A stretch of DNA of 64,000 nucleotides from Corynebacterium variabile. GTDB lineage: Bacteria > Actinomycetota > Actinomycetes > Mycobacteriales > Mycobacteriaceae. Shown here piece by piece: positions 12,301 through 27,644 of the stretch (positions within the stretch are counted from its first letter, which is position 1; the number at the start of each line of letters is the position of its first letter). The stretch spans positions 1 to 64,000 of the forward strand of contig NZ_BJNT01000005.1 in assembly GCF_006539825.1 (NCBI RefSeq), read 5' to 3'. Under the pieces are notes generated by a model that was given only the letters and a program-made list of their open reading frames with translations, did not search any database and was not told the origin of the DNA. The position numbers were made by a program, and so were the translations under genes.

Positions 12301-13917
12301 CTAAGCACTCAGCGGTACGTCCCGCAGGTCCTTACGCAGGATCTTGCCGGTGCCGGACTTCGGGATGACGTCCGTGAACTCGACCATCCGGATCTTCTTG
12401 TACGGTGCGACCCGCTGCGCCACCCACACCATCAGCTCCTCCTTGTCGATCTCCAGTACATTGCCGTCCAGACCGACCTGCGGCACGACGAACGCCCTCG
12501 GTACCTCCTCACCGTCAGACTCCCTGCGGTAGCCGACGACCGCGGCGTCCGCGATGGCTTCGTGGCTCATCAGCAGCGCCTCGAGTTCCGCCGGCGCGAC
12601 CTGGTAGCCCTTGTACTTGATGAGCTCCTTCGACCGGTCGACGACGTACACGTTGCCCTCGTGGTCGTACTGGACGATGTCACCGGTACGCAGCCAGCCG
12701 TCGCGCATGAGCGTGACCTCGGTGGCCTCCTCGTTGTTGAGGTAGCCCAGCATGACCTGCGGACCTCGGATCCACATCTCGCCGGCGTCGGACCGCTCCC
12801 CCTCGTTGCCCGGCGGCAGAATCTCGGCGAAGTCCGCATCGGTGAGGTCAACGACCTTGCACTCCGTGTTCGCGACCGGCAGGCCGATGGATGCCAGCGG
12901 AGTCTCACCGCGGGTGGACACGTGCGTCACCGGGGACGCCTCGGTCATCCCGAAGCCCTGCAGCACAGCGACCCCGAGCCGCTTCTGGACCGCATCGGCG
13001 AGCTTCTCGTCGAGCGCCGCCGCACCGGAGAGCACGGTGGTCAGCGAGGAGATGCCGTACTGGTCGACCAGCGGGTGCTTGGCCAGCACCACGGCGATCG
13101 GCGGGGCGACGAAGGTGAAGTCGATGTCGTGGACCTGGTGCAGTTCCAGGAACCGCGGCAGGTCGAAGGCCGGCATGGTGACGATGTGCAGCCGGTTGTA
13201 CAGCGAGGTGTTGAGCAGCACGTTCATCCCGTAGATGTGGAAGAACGGCAGCACGCACATGATCGTGGAGTCCGGCGTCTGACCGTTGGCCATGAGCAGC
13301 GGACCACACTGGACGATATTCGCGACCAGGTTCCGGTGGCTGAGCTCCACGCCCTTGGGGACGCCCGTCGTGCCGGAGGAGAACGGCAGTACCGCGATGT
13401 GGGTGGCCGGGTCGAACGCCACCTCCGGTGCGGCATGACCCTCCGCCAGCAGGGACGCCAGTCCGTTCGCCTCATCGGCGAGGTCGATGACGGCGTCCTC
13501 GGCGAGTCCGGCGTCCTTCGCTCCCTCGACACCGGCGGTCCCGAGCGCACCGACGGTGAGCATGAGGGACGCCCCGGACGCGGTGACCTGCTTGGCGATG
13601 TCCTGGGCGGTGCCGAGGGCACCGACGGTGGTGACGGTCGCCCCGGCCCGCATGATCCCGTGGAAGGTCACGACGAAGGCCAGGGAGTTCGGGGCGTGGA
13701 GCGCCACGACATCGCCGACGCCGAGTCCTCGGTGGGCCAGTGCCCCGGCGAAGGCGTCCACCTGGTCGCGGAGTTCACCGTAGGTGGTCACCGATCCGGT
13801 GGCCGAGTCGGTGACGGCGACCCGACCTTCTTCCTCGGGAGTCAGGCCTGCGAACAGCACGTCATAGACGCTGACCTCGGGAATCTCGATGGTGCGGTGG
13901 GGACTGGGGACTGGCAC
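12301..13917 (-). CDS. Acyl-CoA ligase (AMP-forming), 4-coumarate-CoA ligase-like
   Basis: The enzyme activates a carboxylic acid with ATP and CoA. The 538-residue protein has the AMP-binding P-loop LPFSSGTTGVPKGVELSH, the GFGMTEASP motif, and the C-terminal hinge GWLRTGDIV with YKGYQVAPAELE and catalytic PKSGTGKILRKDL. It is a close paralogue of the ligase at 19442. The GTG at 13917 has GAGGAG 5 bases upstream and is preferred to the GTG eight codons earlier. A -10 with a palindromic operator immediately after it points to repressor control. The position beside the TetR/ACAD operon suggests a fatty or aryl-aliphatic acid substrate. Confidence 0.92.
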   Translation of the reverse strand: MPVPSPHRTIEIPEVSVYDVLFAGLTPEEEGRVAVTDSATGSVTTYGELRDQVDAFAGALAHRGLGVGDVVALHAPNSLAFVVTFHGIMRAGATVTTVGALGTAQDIAKQVTASGASLMLTVGALGTAGVEGAKDAGLAEDAVIDLADEANGLASLLAEGHAAPEVAFDPATHIAVLPFSSGTTGVPKGVELSHRNLVANIVQCGPLLMANGQTPDSTIMCVLPFFHIYGMNVLLNTSLYNRLHIVTMPAFDLPRFLELHQVHDIDFTFVAPPIAVVLAKHPLVDQYGISSLTTVLSGAAALDEKLADAVQKRLGVAVLQGFGMTEASPVTHVSTRGETPLASIGLPVANTECKVVDLTDADFAEILPPGNEGERSDAGEMWIRGPQVMLGYLNNEEATEVTLMRDGWLRTGDIVQYDHEGNVYVVDRSKELIKYKGYQVAPAELEALLMSHEAIADAAVVGYRRESDGEEVPRAFVVPQVGLDGNVLEIDKEELMVWVAQRVAPYKKIRMVEFTDVIPKSGTGKILRKDLRDVPLSA

Positions 13918-13949
13918 AGGGGCTCCTCGGGCGTCGGGCACGGTTGGCG

Positions 13950-19441: not shown

Positions 19442-21070
19442 CTAGGCGGTCACCTGCAGCGGGACCGCCTTGAGGTCCTTGCGCAGGATCTTTCCGGTGT
19501 TGGACTTCGGGATCGCCTCGACGATGTCGACGTAGCGGATCTTCTTGTACGGGGTCACCTGCTCGGCGACCCAGCCCATGAGTTCCTCGGCGTCGACCTT
19601 CACCGGTGACCCCTCGCGCACCTGCGGGACGATGAAGGCCCGGGGGACCTCCTCACCGTCGGACTCCCGCAGGACACCGACGACACCGGCGTCGGCGATA
19701 TCCGGGTGGGAGAGCAGCAGGGCCTCGAGCTCTGCCGGGGCCACCTGGTAGCCCTTGTACTTGATGAGTTCCTTCATCCGGTCGACGACGTAGACGTTGC
19801 CGTCGCGGTCGAGGTCCACGATGTCGCCGGTCCGCAGCCATCCCTCGGGGGTGATGGTCCGCGCGGTGGCCTCCTCGTTGTCCAGGTAACCGACCATGAC
19901 CTGCGGTCCACGGATCCACAACTCACCGGACTTCGAGCGCGCCTCCGGGTCGTCACTATCCGGGGCGGTGATCTCGGGCAGGGAATCATCGGAGACGTCG
20001 ACGACCTTCGCCTCGGTATTGGACACGGGGTGCCCGATGGACGCCGCCGGGGTCTCACCGAGAACCGCACAGTGGGTCACGGGCGAGGTCTCCGTCATGC
20101 CGTAGCCCTGCGCGACAGTGGACCCGATACGTCCGGACACGGAGTCCGCGAGATCACCGTCGAGTGCGGCCGCACCGGAGACCATGTGCTTCATGCTGGA
20201 GAGATCGTACTCGGCGACCACCGGGTGCTTCGCCAGGGCGACGGCGATCGGCGGGGCGATGTAGGTCAGGTCCACCCGGTACTTCTCGATGGCCGCCAGG
20301 AACTTCACCAGATCGAAGGTCGGCATGGTCACCAGGTGCATCCGGTGGAGCAGCGAGGCGTTGAGCAGCGAGTTCATCCCGTAGATGTGGAAGAACGGGA
20401 GCACCGCAAGCATGGTCCAGTCGTGGTCGACCCCGGAGACCTCGAGGGTGACGCCGATCTGGTACATGTTCGCGACCAGGTTGCGGTGGCTGAGCTTCAC
20501 ACCCTTGGCCATGCCGGTGGTGCCCGAGGAGAAAGGGATCACGGCAATGTCCGTGGCGGGGTCGAGATCGACCTCCGGTGCCGGACGACCCTCGGCGATG
20601 AGGGACGCCTGGCCGGCCTCGGGATCGTCGAGGACGATAACGGATTCCGCGGGGAGACCGGCGGACGCGGCACCGGTGATCCCGGCGTCCCCCAGGGCCT
20701 TCATGGTGAGCAGGTGGGACGCACCGGCCTGCTGCAGCTGCTTGTCGATATCGGAGGGTATGAGCAGCGAACCGAGAGTGGTGACCGTTCCCCCGGCGCG
20801 CATGATGCCGTGGAAGGCGACGGCGAAGGCGAGGCTGTTCGGCGCGTGGAGCCCCACGACCGACCCCTTCCCGACGCCGCGGGCGGCCAGTGCTCCGGCG
20901 GTGGCGTCCACCATGTCCTGCAGTTCCCCGTAGGAGACTTCCTGACCGGTGGCGCTGTCGGTGATCGCCGGGCGGGCGCGCTGGTCCTCGGTGAGCGACC
21001 CGAAGAGAGTCTGGTAGATGGTCTCGTCGGGAATGACGATCTCGGGGAAACGGCTGGGTGTGGTGGACAC
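19442..21070 (-). CDS. Acyl-CoA ligase (AMP-forming), second copy
   Basis: The 542-residue paralogue of the ligase at 12301 has the same motifs: PFSSGTTGMAKGVKLSHRN, GYGMTETSPVTH, WLRTGDIVDLDRDG, YKGYQVAPAELEAL and PKSNTGKILRKDL. It activates a carboxylic acid to its CoA thioester. The GTG chosen has CAGGAG 5 bases upstream; upstream ATG codons fall in the promoter. It has a clear promoter and an operator almost identical to that of the SDR/ACAD/kinase operon, so it probably supplies that pathway with substrate. Confidence 0.92.
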   Translation of the reverse strand: MSTTPSRFPEIVIPDETIYQTLFGSLTEDQRARPAITDSATGQEVSYGELQDMVDATAGALAARGVGKGSVVGLHAPNSLAFAVAFHGIMRAGGTVTTLGSLLIPSDIDKQLQQAGASHLLTMKALGDAGITGAASAGLPAESVIVLDDPEAGQASLIAEGRPAPEVDLDPATDIAVIPFSSGTTGMAKGVKLSHRNLVANMYQIGVTLEVSGVDHDWTMLAVLPFFHIYGMNSLLNASLLHRMHLVTMPTFDLVKFLAAIEKYRVDLTYIAPPIAVALAKHPVVAEYDLSSMKHMVSGAAALDGDLADSVSGRIGSTVAQGYGMTETSPVTHCAVLGETPAASIGHPVSNTEAKVVDVSDDSLPEITAPDSDDPEARSKSGELWIRGPQVMVGYLDNEEATARTITPEGWLRTGDIVDLDRDGNVYVVDRMKELIKYKGYQVAPAELEALLLSHPDIADAGVVGVLRESDGEEVPRAFIVPQVREGSPVKVDAEELMGWVAEQVTPYKKIRYVDIVEAIPKSNTGKILRKDLKAVPLQVTA

Positions 21071-21089
21071 GGAGACTCCTGTTCTGACG

Positions 21090-21108
21090 TGAGCTGAATC
21101 ACTGTTCA
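21090..21108. promoter_or_regulatory. Second copy of the 19-bp TetR-type operator
   Basis: TGAGCTGAATCACTGTTCA matches the operator at 15414 in 17 of 19 positions. It lies just downstream of the -10 of the second acyl-CoA ligase gene and covers the likely transcription start, a typical repressor site. Confidence 0.72.
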
Positions 21109-21117
21109 TTTCACGCC

Positions 21118-21146
21118 AATATAGGCCCACTTGCTTCCGAGGGCAA
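21118..21146 (-). promoter_or_regulatory. Promoter of the second acyl-CoA ligase gene
   Basis: TTGCCC (21141-21146), an exact 17-base spacer and TATATT (21118-21123) on the minus strand. The next element downstream is the operator at 21090-21108. Confidence 0.7.
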
Positions 21147-21157
21147 CGATCTCCCGA

Positions 21158-22165
21158 TTACCGGTCTGCCGGCGCCCCCAGCGCATCCCGGAAGCAGGCG
21201 AAGACCTCCGCCGTATCGAGTGCGGTGAGGATCCTCGCATTCGCCGGGCGTGCCCAGTACGGGCCGACCTCGCCGACCTCGCCGTTCTCGCCGGTGCGCC
21301 CCTCCCCCTGCGCCGTCCCGCCGGGCCAGTCCGCCACCGTGGTGCCGCGCAGCAGGTCAGACTCCGCCTCCACCCGCACCGTGGCGTCCTGCAGCTCCGC
21401 GTCGACCGCACCGCACAGCACGGTCGCCGCCGCCAGGTCGTGGATCTGCGCGACGTAGCCGACCCCCACCGACTCGTGGAACTCCATGTAGAACCGGAGC
21501 ACCTCATCGAGCAGGACCCCGACCTCCGGAGACGCGATGGAGACCCATTCCCGCAGTTCCGACGGGGTCAGCAGCACCCGCTCGGTGACGTTGAGCGGAC
21601 AGATCACGGGCGTCGGGGCGTCCTGCGGCCAGTTGTCCAGGCAGTACGCCAGGGCATGCGGGTCCGACCAGGCGTTCCACTCCGCGGTCGGGGTGGTGTT
21701 GCCCGGATAGAGGAACGCCCCGCACATCAGCGTCACCTGCGTGTCCCGCAGCAGATGCGGGGCATGCTCCACCGCCCACGCGAGGTTGGTCGCCGGCCCG
21801 ATGACGAGGATCTTCTCCGGGGACGCCGCCTCCCACGCCGCCACGGCCTGTGCGGCGCTGCCTTCCTCTTCCACCACCGGAGCAGCCGGAATGTGGTACC
21901 CCAGTCCCTCCGGCCCGTGGGTCTCGGGCGTCGTCGTCAACGGCAGCACCCGCGGCCGGGACGCGCCGACGGTCACCGGCACCTCCGGGGTGCCGGCCAG
22001 CCGCAGCACCTCGGCGGAGTTCCGGGCGGCGGTGGCAGCCGTCGTGTTCCCCGCGACCGTCGTGACGTGCAGATCGAGGACGCCGCGCCGGTGCAGCGAC
22101 GCCAACCACAGCAGGGCGAGCGCGTCGTCGATCCCGGTGTCGACGTCCGCGACGAGACTAGTCAT
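21158..22165 (-). CDS. Nucleoside hydrolase (inosine/uridine-preferring family)
   Basis: These enzymes split the N-glycosidic bond of nucleosides to ribose and base. The 335-residue protein begins with the calcium-binding signature DVDTGIDDALALL (residues 7-19), and carries GNTTAATAARNS and the LVIGPATNLAWAVEH segment of the family. Its ATG overlaps the preceding gene by 8 bases (ATGACTAG), so it ends a five-gene unit with the PH-domain and module proteins. A link between nucleoside salvage and those membrane proteins is not known to me. Confidence 0.88.
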   Translation of the reverse strand: MTSLVADVDTGIDDALALLWLASLHRRGVLDLHVTTVAGNTTAATAARNSAEVLRLAGTPEVPVTVGASRPRVLPLTTTPETHGPEGLGYHIPAAPVVEEEGSAAQAVAAWEAASPEKILVIGPATNLAWAVEHAPHLLRDTQVTLMCGAFLYPGNTTPTAEWNAWSDPHALAYCLDNWPQDAPTPVICPLNVTERVLLTPSELREWVSIASPEVGVLLDEVLRFYMEFHESVGVGYVAQIHDLAAATVLCGAVDAELQDATVRVEAESDLLRGTTVADWPGGTAQGEGRTGENGEVGEVGPYWARPANARILTALDTAEVFACFRDALGAPADR

Positions 22166-24020
22166 TGTCGACGAGATCCCAGCCGCGGGCGAGGAAGTCC
22201 TGCTCGGACTCGTCGATCCACGCGTGGATGAGGGACTCGGCGTCCTCCCGGGAATCGACGATCCGCCGGTAGTACTGCTCCTCGCCGTACCCGTGACCCC
22301 ACATCACCGACCAGCGGGTGCCCAGGTGCCGGTCGGCGGTGATGTAGTCGCCGAGCACCACCTGGTCGGCGACCTGGAACCAGTCCAGGTCCGGGGCGTA
22401 GTTCATCGGCACCGCGACATGCACCTCCACCTCACCGACGTTGAAGACATTGCCCACCGAATCGGAGAGCTGCCAGCGGGTCGTCTCGTCCGGCACGGTG
22501 CCCTCGGAGATGTCCTCCCACTCGCGGTCGAGCAGAACCGTGGCGTCCCCGGCCATGAAGCCGGTGAGCAGGTCCACGATGTCCTCCACGGTGCTGCCCG
22601 GATCGACCAGGGAAAGTCGTTCGCCCTCGGCGAGCCGGTGGACGATCCAGCGGTGGTCACCGATGCCGACCTGGACCTCCCGCACCCCGTCGACCGGTGC
22701 GGGGACGCCGCGCCCGGTGGGCTCCACCGACAGCACGAATCCCTCGGTGCCGGCGATGACCGCGGACTCGAGTGTCGCCCGGAGCGACTCCGGTGTCGCC
22801 GAGGCGACCAGTCCGCCGCCGCGGACACTGAACCGGCACAGTGTCGGGGGCGCACCGGGTGCCAGACCGCTGGCGTTGACCCACACCCGCCCGTTCTCCT
22901 CGAGCATGCACACTCCCGTGGTCGCGGCGTGCAGGATGAGGTCGGCGAAGGTGTCGTCGTGGATCTCCGCGGCCAACGGCACAGTGACCTTGAGGATCGC
23001 CCCTCGCGGACGCACCGGGTACGGGTCAAGGTCCATGTAGAGGTGGGACGGCGGGTTCTCCGGATCCTCGGCGGCCTGCAGGGCACGCCGGTTCATCCAC
23101 GCCGCGAGGTCATCGAGGACCTGCGGGGTCGCCGGGGTCGCCGGGGCCTCGGCATCGCGGGGTGCGCCGGAGGCGATGTCGGCGAACTCCCCCGCCGCAG
23201 CGGCGAAGTCCCGGGCGGTACGGAACTCCCCGGGGGCGTCATCGAAGTCCTCGGCGCGGAAGAAGAGGAAGGTCACCGGCTGGGGCTGCGTCGGTGCGGT
23301 GGTGGGGGCGGTGCCGTCGAGCGCGTCCACGGTGACGTCCGTCTCCTCCCACTCCAGGTCGAGGAACTCCTCGCCGTCACCGTTGATGAACAGGGACAGC
23401 ACGTCGATGAGGTACTCCACGGACACGACCGGGTACTCCAACGCCATGATGCGGTCACCGGACCGGTGTTCGATGATCCAGCGTCCTCCCGGGGTACGGG
23501 CCGCCTGGACGAACACCACCCCGGGCACCGGGGACAACGCCGGGTCCACCGGTTCGATGACGATGAACGGGCGCCCGTCGGGCCCCTCGTTCGCGGCGAT
23601 GTCCGCGCCGAGCGCGTCAGTGATGCTCTGGCGGCTGACGTGCAGGGTCACGGCGTCCTGCGAGGTCCGCATCCGGCAGTCGGTCGGCCCGCCGGTGGCG
23701 TTGACCAGCACATCGCCGACCGTTCCGCCGGCGATGTCGTAACCGACGAGGCAGAGACGGTTCGCCACCGCCAGGACGACCAGTGCTGCCACGGTCTCCG
23801 CGGTGCTGTCATCATCCTCGATGAGGACGCCCGCGTCTGTCGGGGAGGAGTGGTCGAAGAAGCCGAGGACACCGGGAATCTGCTGGATCTCACCGGCCAG
23901 TTCGACGAGATCCTGCTGCTCCTGCTCGTCCGGGACGCCGACCGCGGTCCGCACGAGTTCCGGCGGCCGGTAACCGACGCCGACGGCGGACGGGGCGATG
24001 AGCAGGAATCCGATGGCCAT
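22158..24020 (-). CDS. Unrecognised protein with two copies of a module shared with the gene at 25900
   Basis: I recognise no family. The 620-residue protein is two homologous modules plus a tail of about 110 residues. Anchor points are DVLVNATGGPTDCRMRT in module 1 and GRVWVNASGLAPGAPPTLCR in module 2, the shared SPVPGV / VPAPVDGV stretch, RWIIEH / RWIVHR, and the closing LEWEETDV / REWEDISE. The 279-residue neighbour has VWVNPTGGDSGLRMR, SPVPGV, GWIVEY and HRWEDVSA at matching places. No signal peptide or membrane helix is clear. It is cotranscribed with two PH-domain proteins and a nucleoside hydrolase. The repeated WVN...G and WED motifs suggest a ligand-binding fold. Confidence 0.8.
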   Translation of the reverse strand: MAIGFLLIAPSAVGVGYRPPELVRTAVGVPDEQEQQDLVELAGEIQQIPGVLGFFDHSSPTDAGVLIEDDDSTAETVAALVVLAVANRLCLVGYDIAGGTVGDVLVNATGGPTDCRMRTSQDAVTLHVSRQSITDALGADIAANEGPDGRPFIVIEPVDPALSPVPGVVFVQAARTPGGRWIIEHRSGDRIMALEYPVVSVEYLIDVLSLFINGDGEEFLDLEWEETDVTVDALDGTAPTTAPTQPQPVTFLFFRAEDFDDAPGEFRTARDFAAAAGEFADIASGAPRDAEAPATPATPQVLDDLAAWMNRRALQAAEDPENPPSHLYMDLDPYPVRPRGAILKVTVPLAAEIHDDTFADLILHAATTGVCMLEENGRVWVNASGLAPGAPPTLCRFSVRGGGLVASATPESLRATLESAVIAGTEGFVLSVEPTGRGVPAPVDGVREVQVGIGDHRWIVHRLAEGERLSLVDPGSTVEDIVDLLTGFMAGDATVLLDREWEDISEGTVPDETTRWQLSDSVGNVFNVGEVEVHVAVPMNYAPDLDWFQVADQVVLGDYITADRHLGTRWSVMWGHGYGEEQYYRRIVDSREDAESLIHAWIDESEQDFLARGWDLVDND

Positions 24021-24050
24021 GCCGCCAACGCTAACAAAACCCCGGGTCGG

Positions 24051-25448
24051 TCACCGGGACCGCCCGGTCGGCAACGCGCGCTGCCGCAGCCGGGTGAGCA
24101 GCTCCACCGCCTCCTCGGCAGGCAGGTCCCGGCCGACCATCCGCACCGGCCCTGGCACCAGGTCGAACCGTACCGTCGACAGCCCCAGCATCCGCCGCAG
24201 CGGGCCCCGCCGGTGGCTGAGCTCCTGGACGTGCACGGGGTCGATGACGGAGACCGACCGGCGCCACCGGCCGCGGTGACAGACCAGGGCTCTGTCCGTG
24301 GATGCATCTCCGTCCCCACCGACGAGGATCACGCCCTGGCGCGTCCGGTCGAGCGGGGAGACCCACCGGGCGGACGCCGGGCTGCGGTAGACCCGGACTC
24401 CCCCGGTGGAGCCGGCCCCGTCGGGTACTCCGTCAGGACGCATCAGAGCCTCGACCTCTCCGCGGTCCACCGGCCCCAGGTGAGCGGCCAGGGCGAGTGC
24501 CTGGTCCAGCGGGCCCACCGGGAGGACAGCGGTGGTCGCCCCGTCCTTCCCGGGCTCGCCGTATCCGGCGATGTCCACGTCGACCTTCCACCAGTCCAGC
24601 ATCCGCCACAGCAGCGGCTGGGAGATCTGGGCAGCATGGATCCGGTCCAGCGGAACCGTCTGCCGACGCCGTTCACTGAAGCCGAAGGTGATGCCCAGCA
24701 GGTGATTGTCAGAGGTGGCGGTGAACCGCCAGCTGCGGTTGAGTAGTCCCCAGATCCACGGGCCCAGGCCGGCGACCGCAGGCAGGAGCAGTGCCAGCCC
24801 GGCGGGCGTGGCGACCGAGACCAGGACGGCCAGCACGGTCGCCGCGGTCGGGCCGGTCAGCGCGGCAGCGACGATCGACCGGGTGACCGGGATCTCCGGG
24901 ACGACCACGGTGCCCTGGTCTGCATCTGGTCGGGGCTCGTCGGGTGCGGGCACGTCCGGCCGCCTGCGCACCCTGCCCAGCAGGGTGTCCCGCAGCTGCT
25001 CGGCCTGGACGCGCGGCAGATACTCCACACTCACCGCACTGTCCGCGCCACCGGCGGTCTCGACCTTCACTCCGGCCAGCCGGAACAGCCGGGGTGCGAG
25101 CGGTTCCACCAGGTCCACGGCCTGCACCCGGTCGAACCGGGCGGTGCGCAGCTGCGTCGACAGCACGCCCCGGCGCACCGAGATCTCCTCCTCACCGACC
25201 CGCCACCGGGTCGCCCGCCACCACGGCCAGGACAGCAGCCAGCCAAGCATGAAGACGACGACCAGCACGACGAGCGCCGCGGGGATGACGACGACACCCG
25301 GCAACGGGGAGTCCTCGATCCGGTCCCACGCCCAGCGCAGCGTCTCGGCCTGCTGGAACAGGATCACCGCGGCGACGCCGACGAGGGCCGCCCACATCCG
25401 CAGCAGCGGGCTCAGCGGATGGACGCGCTGCCACCCCCCGTCGCTCAC
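24051..25448 (-). CDS. Membrane protein with bacterial PH domains, YdbT-like
   Basis: The 465-residue protein has paired membrane helices near residues 15-30 and 50-75 and again near 190-225. These are followed by bPH2 (DUF304) domains: WRATRWRVGEEEISVRRGVL with RFDRVQAVDLVEPLAPRLF, a second from NRSWRFTATSDN, and a third degenerate one near the C-terminus. YdbS/YdbT pairs are linked to resistance to membrane-active bacteriocins in Bacillus; the biochemical role is not known. It overlaps the YdbS-like gene by four bases. Confidence 0.83.
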   Translation of the reverse strand: MSDGGWQRVHPLSPLLRMWAALVGVAAVILFQQAETLRWAWDRIEDSPLPGVVVIPAALVVLVVVFMLGWLLSWPWWRATRWRVGEEEISVRRGVLSTQLRTARFDRVQAVDLVEPLAPRLFRLAGVKVETAGGADSAVSVEYLPRVQAEQLRDTLLGRVRRRPDVPAPDEPRPDADQGTVVVPEIPVTRSIVAAALTGPTAATVLAVLVSVATPAGLALLLPAVAGLGPWIWGLLNRSWRFTATSDNHLLGITFGFSERRRQTVPLDRIHAAQISQPLLWRMLDWWKVDVDIAGYGEPGKDGATTAVLPVGPLDQALALAAHLGPVDRGEVEALMRPDGVPDGAGSTGGVRVYRSPASARWVSPLDRTRQGVILVGGDGDASTDRALVCHRGRWRRSVSVIDPVHVQELSHRRGPLRRMLGLSTVRFDLVPGPVRMVGRDLPAEEAVELLTRLRQRALPTGRSR

Positions 25449-25903
25449 AGGCCGCTCATCCTCTCCCGGGCGGCGACGGCGAGGCGGTCGCGCAGGGCGT
25501 CCGCGGTTGCGGCGTCCAACCCCACCACCTCGGAATCACTGGTGGAGGACGCGGTGTGCAGCTTCACCCTCTTCACCCCGAACAGCCGCTCCACCGGACC
25601 GGCGGTGACATCGACATACTGGATCCGTCCGTAGGGCACGACGGTGATCGTGCGCCACAGGCGTCCACGCGTGATGAGCAGTTCATCGGTGGTCTCCGCC
25701 CAACGGCGGTTGCGCGCCTGGGCCGGCAGCAGCCACAGCTGCCACACCAGAAGGACGCCGAGAACAGCCGCACCGGCCCAGAATCCCGGATCGACGACAA
25801 CAGCGAGGATGACGCAGGCGGTCAGCGGAATCAGCGTCCACGGCAGGATGCTGAGCATCTGGGCAGGCAGGTAGCCCCGGCTCACCGGGGTCATGTCGGT
25901 CAT
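25445..25903 (-). CDS. Membrane protein with one bacterial PH domain, YdbS-like
   Basis: The 152-residue protein has two membrane helices (about 17-37 and 41-60) and a bPH2 domain with RRWAETTDELLITRGRLWRT, VVPYGRIQYVDVTAGPVERL and GVKRVKLHTAS. It is the usual partner of the YdbT-like protein encoded next. Both gene borders overlap by ATGA, so expression is tightly coupled, and it is flanked by the two module proteins. Confidence 0.83.
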   Translation of the reverse strand: MTDMTPVSRGYLPAQMLSILPWTLIPLTACVILAVVVDPGFWAGAAVLGVLLVWQLWLLPAQARNRRWAETTDELLITRGRLWRTITVVPYGRIQYVDVTAGPVERLFGVKRVKLHTASSTSDSEVVGLDAATADALRDRLAVAARERMSGL

Positions 25904-26739
25904 ACGATGAGCTCGGCGGAGACGTCCTCCCAGCGGTGGTCGAAGAATCCTCCGTCTTCGCCGGCGGAGTACTGGCCGAGGACCTGGGAGATGTAGCCCA
26001 GCGCGTTCTCGTCGTCCAGGACCTCCTGGTCGAGCCGGAAGTGCCGGTTCGAGGTGCGGTACTCCACGATCCAGCCGGCACCGGTCAACGCGGCCTGGAC
26101 ATAGCGGACGCCGGGCACCGGGGACGTCGAGTCATCCCCGTGGACCTCGACGACGACGAAAGGGATGCCGTTGTCGGCGCGGCGCCGTCGGTCGACGTCC
26201 TCCCCCAGCACCGCCAGGATGCTCGCCCGGTCGACGTGGGTGGTGACAGTGTCCAGCGAATCACGCATCCGCAGCCCGGAATCGCCGCCGGTGGGATTGA
26301 CCCACACCTGCTCCATGTCGTCGACCATGCAGATTCCCAGGTCCGCAGCCTTGATCTGGATCTGACGTCCGGTCTCGTCCCCGGTGGAGAACGGCACGCC
26401 GACATGGAGGACGCCGCAGGTGGGTGTCACCGGGAATTCGGAGATCGACAGGAAACGGAACGCCGGAGGAAGGTTCGGGTCGTGTGCACCGAGGTCGGCG
26501 TGGTGGTTGATCCAGTCGGCGAGGTCGATGATCGGGGCCGGGGCGTTGGCTGCGGCCGCGTCCCAGCTGTCGAAGCTGCCGGTGCCGGAGAGGGCGGAAT
26601 CCATGGTGGTCGCGTTGTCTTCGGCCACCAGACTGTTCATGTGCTCGTTCGCCAGTGTGAGCAGGGCATTGTCCGGCAGGTAACCGTCCGGGGTTCCGGT
26701 GTCGGTCGTGGGGACGAAGAAGAGGAAGCCGAAGCTCAC
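25900..26739 (-). CDS. Unrecognised single-module protein, first gene of the PH-domain operon
   Basis: This 279-residue protein is one copy of the module found twice in the 620-residue product encoded at 22158. It begins SFGFLFFVPT, has DLGICMVDDMEQVWVNPTGG in the middle and ends FFDHRWEDVSAELIV. It has no clear signal peptide or membrane helix. The GTG start has CAGGAGG 8 bases upstream, one of the best ribosome sites in the window, and the next gene overlaps by four bases. The function is unknown; the fixed arrangement with YdbS/YdbT-like proteins suggests a joint membrane-surface role. Confidence 0.78.
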   Translation of the reverse strand: MSFGFLFFVPTTDTGTPDGYLPDNALLTLANEHMNSLVAEDNATTMDSALSGTGSFDSWDAAAANAPAPIIDLADWINHHADLGAHDPNLPPAFRFLSISEFPVTPTCGVLHVGVPFSTGDETGRQIQIKAADLGICMVDDMEQVWVNPTGGDSGLRMRDSLDTVTTHVDRASILAVLGEDVDRRRRADNGIPFVVVEVHGDDSTSPVPGVRYVQAALTGAGWIVEYRTSNRHFRLDQEVLDDENALGYISQVLGQYSAGEDGGFFDHRWEDVSAELIV

Positions 26740-27047
26740 TGGTGGCCCTCCTGAGGAAGCTGTAGGGGCGGGCGGACGTAAGACGAAATATGTTGGGGTA
26801 CCCGACCATCCTAGGGTGTGACAGCACTCACGGGTGGTTCAAACCTCCGGGGGTGTCACAGTAGGGGTGATGTGGACTCAGGGTTCTCTCCCTCCTACCA
26901 CCCACGGCCTCCGCCGGTCCCCCACAAAAGCCGATCCCCCACGACATGCACCGCTGAACGGGACGTCTGTATGCGGGGAGAATGGTACCCAGGTCACACA
27001 TCAGTCGATGTCAACGTGACAGCGGCCCGGGACATACCGGAGACAAC
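26740..27047. other. Intergenic region between divergent units
   Basis: About 300 bases separate the module/PH operon (leftward) from the Abi-like gene (rightward). The frames on both strands look random. GTGTGACAG and GTGTCACAG occur 44 bases apart near 26815-26867 and could be regulator half-sites. On the minus strand TAGGAT and CATATT are candidate -10 elements, but no -35 is convincing. Confidence 0.4.
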
Positions 27048-27644
27048 ATGACGTCCGCATCGCTGAAATTCGTGTCAGAGCAGCGCATGAAGCACTTTTT
27101 CACCGGAGCCTTCTACGACGAGCTGCAGGCCATCGCACTCTACGATCGGGACCGCCGACTCGCCGCAGCATTCTTCCAGGATATCTCCATCCTGGAGATC
27201 GCCATCCGAAATGCGATCGACCGCGCCCTGTCAGACAGATCCGGTGCAATGTGGTTCGCCAGCAGCCGCATGAACCGGGGCGCCCGCACCACCCGGCAAC
27301 TCTGCGACACCTGGGCGAGATTCCCGGCCGGATTCCGTCAGCCTACGGAACACAGTGGAACCATCAGAGGTCGACTGATCTCCACCTGCATGTTCGGCCT
27401 GTGGGTCTCCATCCTCGATTCCGGCGGCGGCACCGGACTACCTGAACCGCGCGACCTTGCCAGACACGACGAGATCCGGGACCGGAAACTGCTCCTCGCC
27501 GCTTTCCCCGGCGGTCAGCTGGTGGCTACCGCAGAGCACGGTGCGGCCGGAAAACTCACCGGGTCATGGGTCCATGAACAGGTGAGGAAGACCCACCTGT
27601 TCCGCAACCGGGTCGCCCACCACGAACCGCTGATCCTCGACTGA
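27048..27644 (+). CDS. Abi-family (AbiD/F-like) HEPN protein
   Basis: The 198-residue protein starts FVSEQRMKHFF, continues with ALYDRDRRLAAAFFQDISIL and the helical EIAIRNAIDRALS, and ends with FRNRVAHHEPL. The last motif is the R-X4-6-H HEPN ribonuclease signature found at the end of Abi_2 family proteins. Members are associated with abortive infection by phage, acting through RNA cleavage. GGAGA precedes the ATG; a longer upstream frame lacks one. No partner antitoxin or other defence gene is adjacent. Confidence 0.75.
   Translation: MTSASLKFVSEQRMKHFFTGAFYDELQAIALYDRDRRLAAAFFQDISILEIAIRNAIDRALSDRSGAMWFASSRMNRGARTTRQLCDTWARFPAGFRQPTEHSGTIRGRLISTCMFGLWVSILDSGGGTGLPEPRDLARHDEIRDRKLLLAAFPGGQLVATAEHGAAGKLTGSWVHEQVRKTHLFRNRVAHHEPLILD

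Follow-up and report, generated by a model that had tools for sequence, protein, structure and literature searches.

The window analysed here is a stretch of 64,000 nucleotides of Corynebacterium variabile (contig NZ_BJNT01000005.1, positions 1 to 64,000). Within it lie five tightly spaced genes, P1 to P5 (table 1). P1 and P4 are built from an undescribed, repeated module, P2 and P3 form a pair of bPH_2-domain proteins resembling YdbS and YdbT, and P5 is a nucleoside hydrolase. All five open reading frames (ORFs) are on the minus strand. The overlaps are 4 nucleotides (P1/P2), 4 nucleotides (P2/P3) and 8 nucleotides (P4/P5), and the single gap, of 30 nucleotides, falls between P3 and P4. A preliminary description of this DNA had proposed an operon-like run of just this composition. 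The spacing of the genes is real, and the identity of the parts is borne out by Pfam and phmmer. In all 12 Corynebacterium genomes in which we found the module, a module gene stands directly before the hydrolase gene.

The module and its repeats

When P1 and P4 are compared by phmmer they match in two stretches (E = 2.4e-40), a repeat far beyond chance. The module that they share is 230–280 residues long and divides, by profile–profile comparison, into an N-half and a C-half. The preliminary description had assigned one copy to P1, and two copies plus a tail to P4. The copies were confirmed by phmmer and hhalign. From sequence and model, the tail is most plausibly a third C-half, C3, that has diverged. 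By hhalign it matches C1 and is weak elsewhere (30.1% against the P1 C-half, 3.3% against C2). Part of it is picked up by a profile of the wider superfamily described below (E 0.002), and its predicted order of strands and helices equals that of the other C-halves.

The anchor motifs first listed for the module are present but partly degenerate. The segment WVN-x-(T/S)G occurs also as LVN-x-(T/S)G, and SPVPGV is replaced by APVDGV in copy 2. P1 has GWI instead of RWI, and copy 1 closes on WEE instead of WED.

Does the module belong to a known family? It had been called unrecognised, and this stands: at E ≤ 5 neither P1 nor P4 matches anything in Pfam or NCBIfam. The module is thus without a model in either collection in our scans. 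PADLOC gave no match to any of the five genes at E ≤ 0.1. Searches of the Protein Data Bank (PDB) by sequence, with P4 and with one distant relative, returned no credible match. A tblastn search of plasmids with P1 and P4 returned none, and of 79 pattern matches of the P1 profile to viral contigs 0 were confirmed. The single PHROGs match, of P4 to a function-unknown PHROG (E 0.15), was set aside as noise. Three further sub-threshold matches were treated in the same way: Phage_attach in one of 15 P1-family members (E 0.025), DUF3659 in one of five P4-family members (E 0.27) and cyanuric acid amidohydrolase in a PDB profile search (E 0.019).

Table 1. Genes and module parts of the five-gene run, with the gene that follows it; coordinates refer to the window.
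Feature	Positions	Strand	Evidence or remark
P1, one-module protein, 279 residues, GTG start	25900-26739	-	ORF; N-half residues 1-143, C-half 144-279
P1 N-half	26311-26739	-	model: strand, helices, then strand-helix-strand-strand (ferredoxin-like)
P1 C-half	25903-26310	-	anchors WVNPTG, SPVPGV, VQAA, GWIVEYR, RWED; DddI-like predicted fold
P2, YdbS-like, one bPH_2 domain, 152 residues	25445-25903	-	Pfam PF03703, E 1.1e-15, one stretch
P3, YdbT-like, three bPH_2 stretches, 465 residues	24051-25448	-	Pfam PF03703, E 1e-36
P4, module protein N1-C1-N2-C2-C3, 620 residues	22158-24020	-	phmmer, hhalign, AlphaFold model
P4 N1, residues 1-104	23709-24020	-	hhalign to P1 N-half 76.0%, first 28 columns only
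P4 C1, residues 103-229	23334-23714	-	hhalign to P1 C-half 99.9%, E 8.3e-35
P4 N2, residues 246-380	22881-23285	-	hhalign to P1 N-half 99.5%, E 9.8e-23
P4 C2, residues 379-506	22503-22886	-	hhalign to P1 C-half 99.5%, E 8.7e-23
P4 C3 ('tail'), residues 507-619	22164-22502	-	hhalign to C1 80.8%, E 1.3e-5
P5, nucleoside hydrolase, 335 residues, intact DVDTGIDD	21158-22165	-	Pfam PF01156 IU_nuc_hydro, E 5.6e-64
AMP-binding enzyme, 562 residues, directly 3' of P5	19442-21130	-	

The module gene and its nucleoside hydrolase neighbour

A search of 201 Corynebacterium genomes with P1 gives matches in 13, of which 12 remain after one was dropped. The match in that genome (G088) is a chance one. It is short, lies in an ORF that directly adjoins recA and is recX-like by position, and the family profile finds nothing there. 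Among the 12 genomes, which form one clade, identity to the P1 of the window falls to about 45%. The full P1 profile matches just one of 251 genomes of the family, that of the window itself.

P1 and its paralogues sit between purA, mostly accompanied by an MGMT-like gene, and the nucleoside hydrolase gene. We saw purA in 11 of the 12 genomes; in the twelfth (G125) the contig breaks off immediately ahead of P1, and the upstream genes are out of sight. An AMP-binding enzyme lies just 3' of the hydrolase in nine of the 12 (in G030 an ORF on the opposite strand intervenes). Measured to the hydrolase start codon that lies closest to the motif, the module stop codon is −8 to +11 nucleotides away in 12 of 12. 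A second measure, independent of the choice of start, gives the same picture: the module stop lies 11 to 77 nucleotides before the motif DVDTGIDD, again in 12 of 12.

That P5 is a nucleoside hydrolase is clear from its Pfam match to the inosine-uridine family, which spans profile positions 2–296 of 297, and from the intact DVDTGIDD, which we take to be the metal-site motif of these enzymes. The extended form [DN]VDTGIDDALAL is present in the hydrolases of all 12 genomes. Four NCBIfam equivalog models score P5 at 110.8 bits at most, far under their cut-offs of 382–459 bits, and we therefore assign no substrate.

Which module gene occupies the place directly before the hydrolase? It is P4 in four genomes, a P1 paralogue in one (G147) and P1 in seven. 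The junction is thus kept though its occupant differs. P1 and P4 occur together in four genomes (that of the window, G024, G028 and G128), with an extra P1 paralogue upstream in G024. In G147, P1 is accompanied by a P4-like gene with one module and by a P1 paralogue; in the seven others only P1 was seen. Between purA and the hydrolase there are accordingly one to three module genes across the 12 genomes. At another locus of G024 stands a further paralogue of 264 residues (L040 7743–8537), with no hydrolase match in the stretch fetched.

Nucleoside hydrolases themselves are far more widespread than the module, with matches at E ≤ 1e-30 in 142 of the 201 genomes. Among 16 stretches that hold a hydrolase and no module, seven also hold purA, and in G158 the hydrolase directly follows purA. 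The hydrolase was therefore probably at the purA locus before the module. A tree was built of 29 hydrolases: the 12 that follow a module gene, the 16 that do not, and a second, very long-branched one from G147. The 12 fall on one side of a single branch (support 88/98; 86% of 200 bootstrap trees), a grouping for which 0 of 500 shuffles gave a value as low. Over 66 pairs the identities of P1 and of the hydrolase co-vary (r 0.80). P1 is the less conserved of the two in 50 of the 66 (means 61.6% versus 72.7%), and this order is reversed when the window is compared with its closest relatives.

How constant are the other members of the run? By Pfam, P2 and P3 are a YdbS/YdbT-like pair, a short protein with one bPH_2 domain adjacent to a long one with three. 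This pair lies inside the operon in three of the 12 genomes, after P1 in the window (G000) and G024, and before P1 in G147. In seven it lies elsewhere in the chromosome (G003, G030, G040, G095, G116, G125 and G176), and in the remaining two (G028 and G128) P3 has no match at E ≤ 1e-5. It is also present in G088, which lacks the module. Conservation of the neighbourhood, the check laid down in the preliminary description, thus holds for the hydrolase (12 of 12) and not for the pair (3 of 12). We regard the pair as a YdbST-like unit in its own right, with a place in the operon in few species only.

Some further features of the window may be recorded here. Divergent from P1 lies an Abi_2-like gene (26982–27644, plus strand; Pfam E 7.8e-7, PADLOC PD-T4-5 E 4.4e-10). 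A related record (L001) has the homologous stretch as two shorter ORFs of 142 and 135 residues, and no match was seen at most other related loci. The AMP-binding enzyme that follows P5 has a paralogue at 12301–13941 (546 residues), also on the minus strand. Ahead of the gene at 19442–21130 there is a weak promoter-like match (21146–21118).

A wider superfamily and a predicted immunity-like fold

Of 242 Corynebacterium genomes, 20 match a profile of the C-half at E ≤ 0.001; the 12 described above do so strongly, eight others weakly (E 7.4e-7 to 8.0e-4). All eight weak matches lie in open frames that end in a similar way. Three of them (L131, L135 and L137; 406–440 residues) read as two tandem modules, which suggests that tandem duplication recurs in the superfamily of the C-half. 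The neighbourhoods of five of the eight have no gene common to all five; in G199 and in G150 the two-module relative is preceded by an ATP-binding cassette (ABC) permease-like gene.

Beyond the genus, a superfamily profile (A4) made from the C-halves and their distant relatives matches 17 of 246 genomes of the class at E ≤ 0.01. Removal of the window's own genome and of two chance matches, to an ABC-permease-like ORF (G834) and to an unrelated-looking ORF (G873), leaves 14 genomes from four other genera. In one search the matches apart from G000 and G246, namely G689, G698, G812, G841 and G873, were discarded as chance by eye. By sequence the superfamily takes several forms: standalone proteins of about 100 residues, fusions to DUF6891, a fusion to a GNAT acetyltransferase, and two-domain proteins that start MSFELAVW or similar. 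The fusions to DUF6891 are of Streptomyces type (L155, L157, L159, L161, L164, L165 and L170). Pfam confirms DUF6891 in L155 (E 4.2e-59), and the others were assigned by likeness. A literature search for this function-unknown domain by name found nothing. The GNAT fusion lies at L162 1396–2319 (E 1.8e-24).

A profile of P1 C-halves from Corynebacterium alone matches an alignment of 13 superfamily sequences at 96.7% (E 4.7e-10), a comparison that is not fully independent, as these sequences were gathered with a profile containing the modules. The A4 alignment of 15 rows has one Q, one E, one R and one W that are invariant. On the strength of these alignments we conclude that the C-half is a member of a wider actinobacterial superfamily, in which it occurs either by itself or joined to DUF6891 or to GNAT. 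The N-half reaches 78.5% by hhalign against the distant Corynebacterium set, 22.2% against two g22 sequences and 0.8% against the Streptomyces-type set; its kinship appears established for Corynebacterium only.

Close relatives of one standalone form occur in 12 Streptomyces plasmid records and in no phage. Eight of the plasmid regions were fetched, seven of them annotated, and transposase genes lie within the 8 kb fetched in five of the seven. In one annotated region (L189, plasmid pSM17A) the homologue lies about 3.3 kb downstream of an annotated polymorphic-toxin HINT gene. Small unknown genes come next, and the pieces scanned gave no Pfam match. One standalone relative matches the TscA antitoxin at E 0.13, below threshold, which we treat as noise. 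Across the superfamily, neighbours recur only among close kin (G721, G805 and G863, for example).

What fold might the module adopt? The AlphaFold2 model of P1 is confident (mean predicted local distance difference test score, pLDDT, 86.3; predicted template modelling score, pTM, 0.85), that of P4 moderate (pLDDT 68.6, pTM 0.40). When candidates proposed by Foldseek were re-aligned, the P1 C-half (model residues 156–273) superposed on DddI (6u08_B) with Z 10.1 over 99 of 120 residues, at a root-mean-square deviation (rmsd) of 3.0. The corresponding values for P4 C1 on 6u08_D are Z 10.7, 98 of 121 residues and rmsd 2.8. Both models are thus superposable on DddI over most of the domain. P4 C1 also aligned with 6anz, a hypothetical protein of Neisseria gonorrhoeae (Z 9.1). 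The rows after DddI and 6anz (Z 7.1 and 7.2) all concern the N-half, which means that other folds were scarcely probed for the C-half. The P1 N-half scores no higher than Z 7.1, against ferredoxin-like chains, whose arrangement is a common one. A library of viral structures gave nothing at E ≤ 0.001.

In systems of the DddI type a deaminase toxin gene adjoins the immunity gene. No such toxin was recognised by Pfam or NCBIfam in the five genes or in those around them, nor any toxin by Pfam, NCBIfam or PADLOC in the operon genes. Membership of the immunity family Imm1 (PF14430) was considered and rejected: the window proteins do not match it at E ≤ 5, nor do 15 P1-family and five P4-family members at E ≤ 1, and seven Imm1 sequences taken from the genus to which G455 belongs (presumably Streptomyces) reach at most 3.9% by hhalign. 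A survey found Imm1 in 0 of 151 Corynebacterium genomes, 0 of 149 genomes of the phylum and seven of 101 in the genus of G455 (six over the cut-off); the survey was silent in its controls, which makes the first two absences weak.

Possible roles and known systems

With the gene order, the close junctions, the repeat, the superfamily and the predicted resemblance of fold established, what might the module proteins do? Immunity proteins bind enzymes, and the simplest reading is therefore that the module protein binds the nucleoside hydrolase and controls or assembles it. We tentatively favour this reading, in which proteins of immunity fold act as a co-translated binding partner or regulator of the hydrolase. 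P1 and P4 would be soluble, non-enzymatic binding proteins that join a predicted ferredoxin-like N-half to a predicted DddI-fold C-half. In one Corynebacterium clade such a protein would have come to stand before the chromosomal hydrolase gene near purA. The arrangement would have been retained since, the close junctions suggesting translational coupling. The module protein might then bind the nascent hydrolase and inhibit, stabilise or assemble it. By analogy, binding may be pictured like that of an immunity protein occupying the active face of its enzyme.

Several observations weigh against a dedicated partner of the hydrolase. Many Corynebacterium hydrolases manage without a module (142 of 201 genomes carry a hydrolase, 12 the module). 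Since the 12 genomes are one clade, the coupling could be a single event inherited with synteny, and an r of 0.80 would also be expected from common descent. The branch that unites the 12 hydrolases is below the star threshold of the tree tool. Around relatives outside the clade, 0 of 23 stretches contain a hydrolase at E ≤ 1e-3; these cover five of the eight weak Corynebacterium genomes, 10 of 14 genomes of other genera and eight plasmids. Four genomes carry P1 and P4 together, though one partner would suffice. Finally, Foldseek alone gave no match at E ≤ 0.001 with the models of P1 and P4, so that the resemblance of fold depends on the re-aligned candidates. A shared fold does not, in any case, show a shared function.

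The chief rival is that the genes form a polyimmunity locus, the module proteins neutralising toxins, deaminase-like or other, that competitors deliver, while the hydrolase is an incidental neighbour or clears damaged nucleosides. The predicted DddI-like fold of the C-half would suit such a role. So would the arrangement of the genes: a multi-domain protein and tandem paralogues, one to three before the hydrolase, as described in passages on polyimmunity loci (PMC3482391). The plasmid-borne standalone relatives, many with transposase genes close by, point the same way, as do the HINT neighbour of one of them and, below threshold, the TscA match of another. Against these stand the lack of a recognised toxin among the operon genes, the lack of an Imm1 match, and the single occurrence of a HINT gene in seven annotated plasmid regions. 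The DddA-like domain PF14428 was found in 0 of the 12 genomes, in a search that was silent in its controls too and hence leaves genome-wide absence unproven. The fixed chromosomal place and constant hydrolase junction also argue against a polyimmunity locus. We regard it as an unlikely explanation, though one to be taken seriously.

Alternatively, an unrelated and probably housekeeping protein was inserted once before the hydrolase and has hitch-hiked by vertical descent, synteny and compact operons accounting for the spacing. All 12 cases may indeed descend from one event, purA and the AMP-binding gene are likewise conserved neighbours, and elsewhere the relatives have neighbours in common only where they are closely akin, none of these neighbours being a hydrolase. 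Yet the bPH_2 pair, the Abi_2-like gene and P4 vary within the interval, while the junction of module and hydrolase never opens, and different module paralogues fill the place next to the hydrolase. Hitch-hiking seems to us rather improbable.

The binding-partner reading may be taken further, to the whole superfamily as a domesticated family of immunity-fold inhibitors and, in this clade, a dedicated inhibitor of the hydrolase, immunity proteins having become regulators of nucleoside salvage. To this larger claim we give little credence.

Very improbable is the proposal of the preliminary description that the module proteins and the YdbS/YdbT-like pair form one membrane complex for tolerance of membrane-active peptides, with the module proteins as its specific part: the 4-nucleotide overlaps in the window and published roles of YdbST-like proteins speak for it, but the pair stands in the operon in too few of the module genomes (and without the module in G088) for a general rule, which rules out the complex as a conserved unit, and no result ties those roles to the module. 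As to the roles themselves, in the passages concerned YdbST is listed as protecting against amylocyclicin (PMC8144471), and its homologues are said to transport enterocin DD14, a pair being listed in C. glutamicum too (PMC8657885).

Why does the binding-partner reading matter? A passage of PMC10526354 describes the physiological role of bacterial nucleoside hydrolases as not completely clear, and a conserved, closely coupled partner gene offers, within one clade, a concrete handle on that role. With the C-half, an actinobacterial domain without a Pfam model in our scans also comes into view, and an immunity-like fold is predicted for it. A number of proteins now listed as 'hypothetical' can thus be tested for binding to enzymes.

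How do the parts compare with known systems? P5 resembles RihA, RihC and UriH (PF01156) in its full-length Pfam match and its DVDTGIDD motif, and differs in scoring below the NCBIfam equivalog cut-offs. In a review of the Rih enzymes the terms 'inhibitor protein' and 'immunity' are both absent. None of the literature passages seen mentions that the module is coupled to a nucleoside hydrolase, and the module has no name by which print could be searched. The bPH_2 pair resembles YdbS and YdbT in being encoded by adjacent genes of similar size (152 and 465 residues, versus 159 and 493 in the B. subtilis proteins as given in a passage of PMC8657885); here it is embedded in a module operon, but only in the few genomes named above.

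The TY-chaperones (YbjN/CesT-like) were considered since TY-Chap2 is described, in a passage of PMC9503650, as a beta-meander domain with helices on either side, present in tandem. The module has no Pfam match to YbjN or the TY-chaperones. Neither they nor other immunity folds figure in the structural rows listed, which does not count against any of them. With Imm1, a domain of about 125 positions, the module shares by our reading an ending with a conserved W, seen in five full-length members.

DddI, the immunity protein of the type VI secretion system cytidine deaminase DddA (PDB 6u08), is alike in predicted fold to the C-half. Identity to the C-halves is 10–11%, and a PDB profile search gave no sequence link. 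The module adds an N-half and tandem copies, no deaminase toxin was recognised beside its genes, and the gene next to it encodes a nucleoside hydrolase. In passages of PMC10442228, DddI is described as covering the site at which DddA binds DNA, and this is read as DNA mimicry. Polyimmunity proteins and loci, in the passages of PMC3482391 that describe them, likewise have tandem domains within a polypeptide and paralogues in the same orientation, with small gaps and in varying number, and the module genes are arranged in this manner. The module locus differs from them in that its domain is homogeneous and undescribed, and in that an enzyme gene is its constant member.

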